64,000 nucleotides of DNA from Malikia spinosa (lineage in GTDB: Bacteria; Pseudomonadota; Gammaproteobacteria; Burkholderiales; Burkholderiaceae_C), in NCBI RefSeq assembly GCF_002980625.1, contig NZ_PVLR01000030.1:1-64000 (forward strand), in the 5' to 3' direction. Shown in pieces: positions 1,096 to 7,660 of this stretch (the first letter of the stretch is position 1; each line of letters starts with the position of its first letter). Both the position numbers and the translations under genes were made by a program. The notes beneath the pieces were generated by a model, which was not told where the DNA came from, searched no databases, and saw only the letters and a program-made list of their open reading frames with translations.

Positions 1096-4083
<2,988 letters not shown>

Positions 4084-4096
4084 AGCCGCCAAGTCG

Positions 4097-5212
4097 TCAA
4101 TCTTGCCCCTGGCCTGCCGGCGTGCGCGGCGCCAGCTGCCACCAGGGCAGTTCGCGCCGCAGCGACAGCACCTGGCCGCTGGCTTGCGGCGCATAGCCCG
4201 GCAGCTGCGCGATCCGGCTTTGCCAGGCCGGTTGCGCCAGCAGCTCGCGCAGCCGTCGCAGCTCGGGCTGCTCGAGCGCGCTCTTCAGGCAGGCCAGGTA
4301 GTAGCGCTCGCTGGCCAGCGGCACGAAATCCAGCCCCTGCGCGCGCGCTGCCGCTTCGGTGCCCAGGCCGCAGTCGGCGCTGCCCGAGGCCACGGCCTGT
4401 GCCACCGCCGCATGCGAAGGCTCGCAGCGCAGATAGCCCTGGATCTGGCCGGGCTCGAGTCCGGCTTGCTGCAGCAGCTCGTCGAGCAGGACCCGGGTCC
4501 CTGAGCCCAGCGCCCGGTTGACGAAGCGGGCCTTCCAGCGCGCGACCCGCGCCAGGCTGTCGAGCCGCAGCGGATTGCCGCGCGCGACCATCAGGCCCTG
4601 CTGGCGGCGGGCAAAGCCGATCAGCTTGTGCAGCCCCGGCTGCAGCAGCGGCTGGTAGGTCCGGGCCGTCACGCTAGCGCCGTCCGCGCCCTCGCGCACA
4701 TGAAAGCCGGCCAGCACGCAGTCGCCCGCGTTCAGGGCCCGGATCGCCTCGACGCTACCGCTGAAGCGGATGTCCAGGTGCAGCGCGGCCTGGCTGGCCG
4801 CATGGTCCTGCAGCAGCGGCAGCGCGTCGTCATGGCTGGCATGCAGCATCAGCACCAGCGCCTGCGGGTCGAAGGCCAGTGCCAGCGTACGCTCGAGTTC
4901 GGCGCGCAGCGCCTCGATCTGCGGCCCGAGCCGGGCCTGGGCCAGCCTTTCGCTCCAGAGCAGCCGGTCGGCAAACGGGGTCAGCCTGGCTGCCTGGCCG
5001 CGCTCCCAGAAGATCAGGTCCTGCTCCAGGGTCTGCTCCCAGTCCTTCAGCTGGCCCCAGACATGGCGGTAGGACAGGCCGAGCTGACGCGCCGCACCCG
5101 AGATCGAGCCGCTGTCGCGCACGGCCAGCAGCAGCTCGAACAGCGGGTTGCGGATCAGGGCGGCCGGCTCGCGCTCGCTGCAGAGCCGGTAGCTGAGTTC
5201 TATCTTGCGCAT
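4097..5212 (-). CDS. ModE-like transcriptional regulator with periplasmic-binding-protein-like sensor domain
   Basis: The protein has 371 aa. Residues about 20-80 look like a ModE/LysR winged helix-turn-helix (LLAVRDSGSISGAARQLGLS, then YRHVWGQLKDWE and RLTPFADRLLW). The remainder, from about residue 115, resembles the substrate-binding-protein-like domain (PBP_like) found with some molybdate or tungstate regulators: GAGDCVLAGFHV-type and NRALGSGTRVLLDELL segments. It is divergent from the tungstate transporter tupBCA, so it probably senses an oxyanion or molybdopterin-related ligand and controls that operon. Palindromes in the shared intergenic region are candidate operators. The ligand is not shown by the sequence. 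Confidence 0.8.
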   Translation of the reverse strand: MRKIELSYRLCSEREPAALIRNPLFELLLAVRDSGSISGAARQLGLSYRHVWGQLKDWEQTLEQDLIFWERGQAARLTPFADRLLWSERLAQARLGPQIEALRAELERTLALAFDPQALVLMLHASHDDALPLLQDHAASQAALHLDIRFSGSVEAIRALNAGDCVLAGFHVREGADGASVTARTYQPLLQPGLHKLIGFARRQQGLMVARGNPLRLDSLARVARWKARFVNRALGSGTRVLLDELLQQAGLEPGQIQGYLRCEPSHAAVAQAVASGSADCGLGTEAAARAQGLDFVPLASERYYLACLKSALEQPELRRLRELLAQPAWQSRIAQLPGYAPQASGQVLSLRRELPWWQLAPRTPAGQGQD

Positions 5213-5327
5213 GTCGCGACAGTGTGCCCGATCCAGGGCCGGCAGCCTGCCTCCTTATGCATGGAGCTGCATAACTTGGACCCGTTGGCGCTTGCCGGGT
5301 GATGGCCAGGCTAGGATGAGTCGCGAC
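5213..5327. promoter_or_regulatory. Divergent control region of the ModE-like regulator and tupBCA, with operator-like palindromes
   Basis: The region between the regulator start and tupB holds three symmetric elements. An inverted repeat TTATGCA-N6-TGCATAA lies at 5255-5274. The self-complementary octamer GTCGCGAC occurs twice, at 5213-5220 (extended as TGTCGCGACA) and at 5320-5327. A TAGGAT -10-like hexamer at 5313-5318 would put the tupB transcript start near the second octamer. The tupB ribosome site CAGGAG follows. The spacing suggests autoregulation and control of transport by one dimeric factor, but which element is bound is inference. Confidence 0.5.
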
Positions 5328-5346
5328 ACCATAAAACAGGAGATCC

Positions 5347-6093
5347 ATGGCCGCCTTCACCGATGCCGCGCTCGGCGCCTTGCAGCTGCTCGTCGAGCGC
5401 GATCCGGCGCTGTGGGCGATTGTCGGCCGCTCGCTGGCGGTCAGCGCCACGGCCTGCGTGCTGGCCTGCGTGCTTGGGCTGGCGCTGGGTGCCTGGCTCG
5501 GGGTGGCGCGCTTTCGCGGCCGCGAGGCGCTGCTGGCCTTGCTCAACACCTGGCTGGCGGTTCCTTCGGTGGTGGTCGGGCTGGTGGTCTATCTGCTGCT
5601 GTCGCGTTCCGGTCCGCTCGGCTTCCTGGGCTGGCTGTTCAGCTTCAAGGCCATGGTGCTGGCGCAGGCCCTGCTGGTGTTGCCGGTGGTCACGGCCCTG
5701 ACGCGCCAGCTGGTCGATGACGCCGAGCGCCGCCATGGCGAGCAGCTCGCTTCGCTCGGTGCCCGGGCCGGCCTGCGCGGCGCCTTGCTGGCCTGGGATG
5801 AGCGCTATGCCTTGCTGACGGTGCTGATCACGGCGTTCTCGCGTGCGATCTCGGAGGTCGGCGCGGTGATGGTGGTCGGCGGCAATATCGAGGGCTTCAC
5901 CCGCGTCATGACCACGGCGATCGCGCTCGAAACCAGCAAGGGCGACCTGCCGCTGGCGCTCGGCCTGGGCTGGGTGCTGCTGGCGGTGGTGCTGCTGCTC
6001 AATGCCGGCATCGCCGGGCTGCGGCGTTGGCGCGATCGTTCCGGCCTGGCGATGGCGGCCTTGCCGGCCAGCGTGCTGCAGGAGGCTTCATGA
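5347..6093 (+). CDS. tupB: Tungstate ABC transporter, permease subunit
   Basis: The 248-aa protein is strongly hydrophobic with about five or six membrane segments (for example around residues 30-52, 60-85, 98-115 and 205-225). It has the inner-membrane ABC permease EAA-type loop in SLGARAGLRGALLAW and the TupB-like segment ISEVGAVMVVGGNIEGFTRV. It forms the membrane channel for tungstate imported by TupA and energised by TupC. The ATG has a good AGGAG site. Its stop overlaps the tupC start (ATGA), so B and C are translationally coupled. Here the operon order is B-C-A; I infer tungstate rather than molybdate from TupA. Confidence 0.9.
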   Translation: MAAFTDAALGALQLLVERDPALWAIVGRSLAVSATACVLACVLGLALGAWLGVARFRGREALLALLNTWLAVPSVVVGLVVYLLLSRSGPLGFLGWLFSFKAMVLAQALLVLPVVTALTRQLVDDAERRHGEQLASLGARAGLRGALLAWDERYALLTVLITAFSRAISEVGAVMVVGGNIEGFTRVMTTAIALETSKGDLPLALGLGWVLLAVVLLLNAGIAGLRRWRDRSGLAMAALPASVLQEAS

Positions 6094-6812
6094 ACGCGGT
6101 CCCGCTGTTGCAGCTGCGCGGCCTGTCGCTGCGCCTGGGTCCGGTCTGGGCGCTGCGCGACCTCAACCTGCGCCTGGAGGCGGGCGAGCGCCTGGCCCTG
6201 GTCGGCGCCAACGGCAGCGGCAAGACCAGCTTGCTGCGCGTGCTGAACGGCCTGCGTCCACCCAGCGCCGGCAGCCTGAGCTGGCGCCAGCCGCTGCGCC
6301 AGGCGATGCTGTTCCAGCGCCCGCATCTGCTGCGCTGCTCGGTCCGGCACAACGTGGCGCTGGGCCTGTGGCTGGCCGGCCAGTCCTGGCGCCAGGCGCG
6401 CAAGCGCGCGCTGCTGGCGCTGGAGCGGGTCGGCCTGGCCGAGCTGGCCGACCGGCGCGCCTCGGCGCTGTCGGGCGGCCAGCAGCAGCGCGTCGCGCTG
6501 GCGCGCGCCTGGGCGCTGGAGCCGCAGCTGCTGCTGCTCGACGAGCCCACCGCCAGCCTGGACCCGCATGCCAAGCGCGAGGTCGAGGCCTTGCTGGGCC
6601 AGATCAGCCGCGACGCCACCCAGCCCGAGCCCATGACGCTGGTGTTTGCCAGCCACAACCTGGGCCAGGTCAAGCGCCTGGCCAGCCGAGTCATTTACCT
6701 GGAGGGCGGTCGCATCCTGGCCGATCTGCCCGTCAACGATTTTTTCAACGATGCGCTGCTGGCGGGCAATTACCCCGAGGCGCAGGCTTTTGTCCGAGGA
6801 GAAGTGGCATGA
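6090..6812 (+). CDS. tupC: Tungstate ABC transporter, ATP-binding subunit
   Basis: The 240-aa protein carries all ABC ATPase motifs: Walker A GANGSGKTS (about 39-47), signature LSGGQQQR (about 127-134), Walker B LLLLDEPTASLD (about 147-158) and an H-loop His in FASHN. It powers import through TupB. The ATG overlaps the tupB stop, and the end of the gene overlaps the tupA start by 4 bp, so the three genes form one unit. An in-frame extension upstream of 6090 is rejected because it lies inside tupB. Confidence 0.92.
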   Translation: MNAVPLLQLRGLSLRLGPVWALRDLNLRLEAGERLALVGANGSGKTSLLRVLNGLRPPSAGSLSWRQPLRQAMLFQRPHLLRCSVRHNVALGLWLAGQSWRQARKRALLALERVGLAELADRRASALSGGQQQRVALARAWALEPQLLLLDEPTASLDPHAKREVEALLGQISRDATQPEPMTLVFASHNLGQVKRLASRVIYLEGGRILADLPVNDFFNDALLAGNYPEAQAFVRGEVA

Positions 6813-7660
6813 AGTGGTCCGGAACTGTCCTGTTTTCTACCCGTCGCGGCTGGGGTGTCAGCGCCGCTGCACTCCTGCTGGGCGCCCTGGGCTGGGTGGC
6901 ACCGATGGCTCCAGTAGCCGCGCAGTCGCCGTCGATTGTCGTGGCCTCCACCACCTCGACCGAGCAGTCGGGCCTGTTCGGCCATATCCTGCCCGAGTTC
7001 ACCCAGGCCAGCGGCATCGCGGTCAAGGTGGTGGCGCTGGGCACCGGCCAGGCGATCGACATGGCGCGCCGTGGCGACGCCGATGTGCTGTTCGTGCATG
7101 ACAAGGCGGCCGAGGAGAAGTTCGTCGCCGACGGCTTCGCGCCGCGCCGCTTTGATGTCATGTACAACGATTTCGTGCTGGTCGGCCCGAAGGCCGATCC
7201 GGCCCAGCTGCGCGGCAAGGACATCGTGGCGGCGCTCAGGAAGGTGGCCGCTACCCAGGCACCATTCGTCTCGCGCGGCGACAAGAGCGGCACCCATGCG
7301 GCCGAGCTGCGTTTCTGGCAGCAGGCCGGGGCCGACAAGGGATCGGGCTACAAGGAATGCGGCTGCGGCATGGGCCCGGCGCTCAACATGGCGGCCGCCA
7401 CCGGCAGCTATCTGCTGGCCGACCGCGGTACCTGGCTCAGCTTCAAGAACAAGGCCGACCTGGCGGTGCTGGTCGAGGGCGACCCTCGCCTGTTCAACCC
7501 GTACGGCGTGATGCTGGTCAGCGCGGCCAAGCACCCGCATGTGAAATCGGCCGAGGGCCAGAAGTTCGTCGACTGGGTGCTGTCGCCGGCCGGCCAGGCG
7601 TCGATTGCCAGCTACAAGATCAACGGCGAGCAGCTGTTCTTCCCGAACGCCGTCCGTTGA
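6809..7660 (+). CDS. tupA: Tungstate-binding periplasmic protein
   Basis: The 283-aa protein has a basic start and a long hydrophobic signal segment, with probable cleavage after the VAA near residue 38. The mature part begins with the tungstate-binding STTSTEQSG motif (about 47-55), equivalent to the TTTS signature that distinguishes TupA from molybdate ModA. Further family segments are FVSRGDKSGTH and GMGPALNMA. It delivers tungstate to TupBC. Odd: the second anion-site loop reads KECGCGMG, placing two cysteines (C184, C186) where family members often have T and Q. Whether they bind metal or form a disulfide is unknown. Confidence 0.9.
   Translation: MKWSGTVLFSTRRGWGVSAAALLLGALGWVAPMAPVAAQSPSIVVASTTSTEQSGLFGHILPEFTQASGIAVKVVALGTGQAIDMARRGDADVLFVHDKAAEEKFVADGFAPRRFDVMYNDFVLVGPKADPAQLRGKDIVAALRKVAATQAPFVSRGDKSGTHAAELRFWQQAGADKGSGYKECGCGMGPALNMAAATGSYLLADRGTWLSFKNKADLAVLVEGDPRLFNPYGVMLVSAAKHPHVKSAEGQKFVDWVLSPAGQASIASYKINGEQLFFPNAVR

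Follow-up and report, generated by a model that had tools for sequence, protein, structure and literature searches.

ModE acts as a repressor with molybdate, and LysR-type regulators recognise operators of the consensus T-N11-A. In sulfate reducers TunR, reportedly described by Kazakov in 2013, is a tungstate-responsive regulator with a ModE-like helix-turn-helix (HTH); TaoR is said, from work by Rajeev in 2019, to activate aor and repress tup. The accessible part of PMC545781 gives the E. coli ModE consensus as ATCGNTATATA-N6-TATATANCGAT. PMC10102598 and PMC11980592 associate the TaoR family of Desulfovibrio, which has a PBP-like sensor, with tungstate transport and with AOR, the tungsten aldehyde oxidoreductase, and TaoR seems to be the tupR (DVU3193) of the former paper. 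Tungsten handling, and its separation from molybdenum, is little understood in aerobic and denitrifying Proteobacteria. We analysed a window of 64,000 nucleotides from Malikia spinosa, in which a short control region separates a regulator gene from the divergent tupBCA genes (Table 1). Neither the operator nor the regulator was seen described in the literature searched, which excluded subscription papers and regulon databases.

Table 1. Features of the regulator/tup locus, numbered by position in the window
Feature	Position	Strand	Remarks
Regulator gene, 371 aa	4097..5212	-	ATG at 5212-5210
Intergenic control region (134 bp)	5213-5346		between regulator gene and tupBCA, divergent
Octamer GTCGCGAC, regulator side	5213..5220	.	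takes up the whole 8-nt gap from putative -10 to ATG; Malikia only
Putative regulator -10, CACACT	5221..5226	-	8 nt before ATG
Predicted operator TTATGCATGGAGCTGCATAA (TTATGCA-N6-TGCATAA), ModE-box variant	5255..5274	.	kept in 125/126 orthologous regions
Putative tup -10, TAGGAT	5312..5317	+	37 nt after operator; no recognisable -35
Octamer GTCGCGAC, tup side	5320..5327	.	over predicted tup start point; missing in congeners L002 and L003
Shine-Dalgarno-like AGGAG of tupB	5338..5342	+	by eye from sequence
tupB, tungstate ABC permease	5347..6093	+	NF041773 3.8e-53 (under cut-off); NF038017 (over cut-off)
tupC, ABC ATPase	6090..6812	+	PF00005 1.5e-30
tupA, tungstate-binding protein	6809..7660	+	NF041772 1.2e-59 (under cut-off); PF12849 4.6e-43

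The regulator consists of a ModE/LysR-type HTH (residues ~23-86), a linker helix (79-114) and a PBP_like sensor (~118-354), with Pfam matches to PF12727 (4e-59, covering residues 140-325) and PF00126 (1.5e-9); its match to TIGR00637 (6.4e-10, 39 bits) lies under the 98.5-bit cut-off. A profile built from eight orthologues has ModE (2ijl, 3.8e-7) as its top PDB match, and the recognition helix SYRHVWG is unchanged across 38 aligned orthologues. The AlphaFold2 model (pLDDT 90) contains the HTH, linker helix and PBP fold, and whole-chain Foldseek comparison places LysR-type regulators best (8sbf, 1.3e-14). Among the matches listed for the sensor fold are the phosphate-binding 4gd5 (Z 19.1, rmsd 2.7, 208 aligned), ModA with tungstate (1wod; Z 17.8, rmsd 3.2, 210 aligned) and the Geobacter tungstate binder 3lr1 (Z 16.3, rmsd 3.4, 210 aligned), the last being equalled in Z by the LysR effector domain 2f7c (16.3). 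The expectation of a ModE-type HTH combined with a binding-protein-like domain is thus borne out by PF12727 and by a fold near those of phosphate-, molybdate- and tungstate-binding proteins. We infer that the sensor may take tungstate, a fold being no proof of a ligand. Since the TupB and TupA equivalog models were matched under their cut-offs, the tungstate specificity of the transporter is an assignment and not a proof. An Rfam scan of 5000-5500 gave no match. The control region also harbours a direct repeat, GATCCAGGGCCG / GATCCATGGCCG, at 5230-5241 and 5342-5353, 112 bp apart.

Orthologous loci came from genomes of the family and from a species-level collection, which contributed its best 80. 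Of the family genomes 82 carry the regulator (at an E of roughly 1e-90 or lower), and loci were taken from 75 of these, none having been fetched from the other seven (G091, G115, G116, G121, G173, G177 and G194). Adding L002, the second G174 copy and the 80 collection loci brought the total to 157, from which L102 (49.6% identity) and eight identical regions were dropped; the remaining 148 loci all share at least 50% identity, and tup lies divergently within 600 nt in 126 and not in 22. The pattern TATGCA-N6-TKCATA, allowing up to two mismatches in 12, was found in 125 of the 126 distinct regulator/tup intergenic regions (94 exact), which are mutually related and not independent trials; the sole exception is L056, and the controls gave 1/126 for the reversed pattern and 27/2520 for shuffles. 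The inverted repeat claimed in the original prediction is both present in the window and, as that prediction proposed to check, found before other regulator/tup pairs. Within its own genome it is the sole match with fewer than two mismatches, giving just one operator; sites with two mismatches occur twice at G000:C42 and a third time at G000:C84, and sites with three are also present. Very probably, judging from this pattern of sequence conservation, 5255-5274 is the docking site of the divergent regulator.

Both G000:C42 sites (42296 and 42397, L088; two mismatches each) were set aside as operators of this regulator. Separated by 101 bp, these TGCAAAC-rich palindromes are close to an operon for a sugar ABC transporter and a glycosidase (genes read by eye), and their extended core TGCAAACGTTTGCA suggests operators of another regulator. 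Azoarcus-type genomes (L163, L186) also carry the regulator locus. The intergenic region of L003, from the window's genus, is the same as that of L109, Malikia granosa. At L052 the regulator is divergent not from tup but from a gene for a ModA-like molybdate-binding protein (under the family cut-off), and an exact operator is present.

The site also stays with tup when tup and the regulator gene are separated. We sought tupB in 24 genomes (none was obtained from G012, G057 and G107); where it lies apart from the regulator in regulator-bearing genomes, a site with at most two mismatches is located within 350 nt upstream in 12 of 15 loci, L205, L207 and L208 having none. Other DNA splits regulator from tup at L145, L149 and L029/L192, where an exact site directly precedes tupB, and at L087 an exact site faces tupA. 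The Malikia genomes G003 and G004 contain tupB with neither a regulator match nor a site (best 5 and 4 mismatches); there tupB directly follows the counterpart, identified by eye, of the window gene ending at 4083, which we take to be CoaBC-like. Conservation and this cohesion with tup together support the proposal of a distinct operator between the two genes.

Alignment of 139 operator sites (125 adjacent to the regulator and 14 relocated) revealed -10-like hexamers at two preferred offsets downstream, 22-23 nt (65 sites) and 36-38 nt (40 sites), together 105/139, any other offset being represented at most four times. No -35 consensus is visible downstream of the 139 operators, and a scan of 5150-5420 for sigma-70 and terminator consensus found no sigma-70 pair and no terminator. 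With TAGGAT at offset 37, the operator centre in the window would lie near -59.5 relative to the tup start point, predicted near 5324; in the 22-nt class it is near -44.5. The two classes are ~1.5 turns apart, which is awkward for a single activation geometry.

On the regulator side, 55 loci (type B) have an operator that either overlaps the start of the regulator gene or begins under 15 nt from it, and in 70 (type A) it lies further off. After exclusion of 7/70 type A loci with no start codon at the aligned start, 48 of the other 63, all with a recognisable start, carry CACACT (at least 5/6 matching) 6-8 nt upstream of the start codon, 13 being without any. A Shine-Dalgarno-like sequence precedes the regulator in 3/125 loci. 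The closeness of CACACT to the start, along with the rarity of Shine-Dalgarno sequences, suggests that the regulator mRNA is probably leaderless. The sequence AGTGTGCC, found beside the regulator start in type A loci, sits downstream of the tup -10 in L069 and L080-L083, as if the regulator promoter had shifted into the tup leader.

Exact sites occur at 43 places in 20 genomes picked for carrying the regulator (reversed control in 1/20). Twenty are at tup (one facing tupA), eight before AOR, three before FdsG, and 12 elsewhere without explanation; the AOR assignments come from genes read at the site in four cases and from coordinates relative to AFOR_N matches in the other four. AFOR_N is found in 57/200 family genomes, and the regulator is present in 47 of these 57 compared with 35 of the 143 lacking AFOR_N (Fisher 4e-14, uncorrected for relatedness). 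We examined 60 of the 62 AFOR_N matches, omitting two G012 fragments, with a search pattern that permitted two mirrored variants, as did its reversed control. In regulator-bearing genomes 39/50 aor loci have a site with at most two mismatches (17 exact; reversed control 3/50), always 545-675 nt before the AFOR_N match; in regulator-less genomes the figure is 2/10, at positions other than these. Five of the 11 regulator-bearing loci with no site at this threshold are second or divergent AORs. The same site before the tungsten aldehyde oxidoreductase operon of regulator-bearing genomes points to a tungsten regulon. The gene order aorA-aorB agrees with that of Aromatoleum in the accessible part of PMC6365974. 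A family search found no AOR in the window genome.

In 36/39 loci an aorA-like start follows the end of the aor site by 26-79 nt. On the upstream side of the site a CAAT-like -10 element ends at a distance of 3 nt, each base being present in 24-30 of 39 rows, one of which (L256) was taken at a wrong offset. The site thus likely covers the aor start point, probably a repressor-like position as read from the sequence. Many aor promoters, e.g. L266, L268 and L258, also show a second palindrome, ~CTAGGGTTNTCCCTAG. It precedes the operator by ~40 bp, the place expected for a class II activator.

Formate dehydrogenase is a lead as a further target. Exact sites precede FdsG in 3/20 regulator-bearing genomes. 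Upstream regions were examined for 30 of 50 FdsG matches (five of the 30 in regulator-bearing genomes, and none in the three genomes with exact FdsG sites), and three had a best stretch with at most two mismatches. At L249, L250 and L251, FdsG-like formate dehydrogenase genes on the contig that also bears tup and aor are preceded by exact operators at 80-130 nt. Regulator paralogues with 37-45% identity (L091-L100, L106, L107) are divergent from NuoE/NuoF-like formate dehydrogenase genes, four identified by family search and the rest by eye; some of these loci have TATG-N10-CATA-like elements near the starts, similar but often weak. An 18-mer, TATGCAACTGGTTGCATA, is identical in four genomes (L241, L245, L246 and G007:C1:2377663); at L245 it precedes an OYE-family oxidoreductase gene and is perhaps the site of another factor. 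Taken together, the sequence comparisons strongly support the site, its owner and its targets, namely tup and, in relatives having it, aor. The original prediction had overlooked this recurrence of the site at the aor operon of relatives, as well as the ModE-box geometry and the constant distance from the site to the tup -10.

We consider it rather likely that 5255-5274 is the operator of the divergent ModE-HTH/PBP_like regulator and works as a tungstate-responsive switch. The PBP_like domain would bind tungstate in the cytoplasm, a response to which the regulator's genomic linkage to tup and AOR points, and the tungstate-free dimer would occupy the operator. Bound upstream of a -10 without a visible -35, the dimer may activate tup; where the site overlaps the core promoter, namely at the aor start point and, in type B loci, around the -10 and start of the regulator gene itself, it may repress. 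Tungstate would release the regulator from the operator, and scarce tungsten would turn import on and the tungstoenzyme off. We assign tungstate this releasing role because a single bound state that activates tup and blocks aor would be sensible only if tungstate removes the regulator. The sign of regulation is deduced from the position of the site and from promoters predicted from sequence. Several observations count against the switch: one of 126 tup regions, three relocated tupB loci and 11 of 50 aor loci have no site with at most two mismatches, 12 of the 43 exact sites have no explanation, the two spacing classes suit one activation geometry poorly, and the sensor matches a LysR effector domain as well as it does a tungstate binder. 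In addition, the WOR gene of Brevibacillus (PMC9424855) is unchanged with tungstate, and the window genome has no AOR as tungsten enzyme.

The same regulator and operator might instead work with the opposite sign, the tungstate-bound form repressing tup in the manner of ModE with molybdate, which we regard as unlikely while giving it some weight. ModE provides the precedent, and a site of the 22-nt class directly adjoins the -35 position, from which repression is conceivable too. The Brevibacillus study (PMC9424855) further records that tupA falls with tungstate, though either sign accounts for the drop and the regulator of that organism need not be this one. In most loci, however, the site is 22 or 37 nt upstream of the tup -10 and not over it, and the same bound state would shut the tungstoenzyme gene aor when tungstate is plentiful.

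It is highly improbable that the element serves another transcription factor and is linked to the regulator incidentally. The 12 exact sites away from tup, aor and fds in the 20 genomes would suit such a factor, but the two congeners that lack the regulator have no site upstream of tupB, and its frequency at aor differs between regulator-less (2/10) and regulator-bearing (39/50) loci. Its presence in all but one of the 126 regulator/tup regions and its ModE-box geometry beside a ModE-type HTH argue the same way.

The original prediction had also assigned a role in control, by DNA looping, to two copies of the octamer GTCGCGAC. Both copies are present, 107 bp apart, and the first adjoins the regulator ATG as described; the second does not cover the tupB start, which is at 5347, 20-27 bp downstream of the octamer. 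Of 2000 dinucleotide shuffles of the 134-bp region, 208 contained some inverted repeat with perfect 7-bp arms and a spacer of at most 12, whereas some palindromic octamer was present twice in one of 2000 shuffles. Rarity by chance thus favours the octamers, whereas conservation favours the inverted repeat; the window by itself left the choice undecided and relatives were needed. Among the 126 orthologous regions the octamer is found in three (L001-L003), all Malikia, with the tup-side copy, hence the pair, in the window alone; the window as a whole contains five copies (2.5 expected), three of them far from the locus. The regulator-side octamer is probably no operator, and the idea of octamers as control elements finds no support, the pair not being kept even inside the genus. 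Looping by a regulator bound to both octamers, for which the rarity of such a pair by chance in 134 bp would speak, was rejected as exceedingly improbable because the octamers are not conserved among orthologous regions and three of the five window copies are distant from the locus.

Returning to the tungstate-released switch, we tentatively propose, with slightly less confidence than doubt, that the Burkholderiales tungsten regulon is under a third kind of tungstate regulator, with one bound state, a sign that depends only on where the operator lies, and release triggered by tungstate. Such a protein, a ModE-type HTH on a LysR-like PBP chassis, would activate import and repress aor and its own leaderless gene. 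An operator common to uptake and tungstoenzyme genes predicts which genes serve tungsten metabolism; it also makes a dual switch with a single bound state open to test, and might be used as a part of tungstate biosensors.

The regulator shares features with each of the known systems. Like LysR-type regulators it unites the HTH, the linker helix and a PBP fold in a single chain and has a divergent gene arrangement, whereas its sensor matches PF12727 in place of the LysR_substrate effector domain (absent among Pfam matches at E up to 0.001), and its site differs from the T-N11-A box. With E. coli ModE it shares the HTH family. The original view that the site is not close to the ModE box holds for the inner bases (ATA in ModE, GCA here) and fails for the outer half-site triads and the N6 spacing, which equal the ModE consensus; 8/12 core bases agree with the box TATATA-N6-TATATA. 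ModE carries a C-terminal TOBE/Mop molybdate-binding domain, whereas our regulator has PBP_like instead, with no TOBE among Pfam matches at E up to 0.001, and its predicted targets, unlike those of ModE, are tup and aor. This suggests that the ModE-type HTH retained its operator geometry while the sensor domain was swapped. TaoR has the PBP-like sensor in common with our regulator, but TaoR-like proteins carry HTH_17, which is absent here among matches at E up to 0.001, in contrast to the HTH_1/ModE type of this protein. TunR has a ModE-like HTH as here and is said to bear a different C-terminal domain. Tungstate regulators are already known in Desulfovibrio (TunR, TaoR), and it is the combination of a ModE-type HTH with a PBP_like sensor that appears to run the Burkholderiales tungsten regulon.
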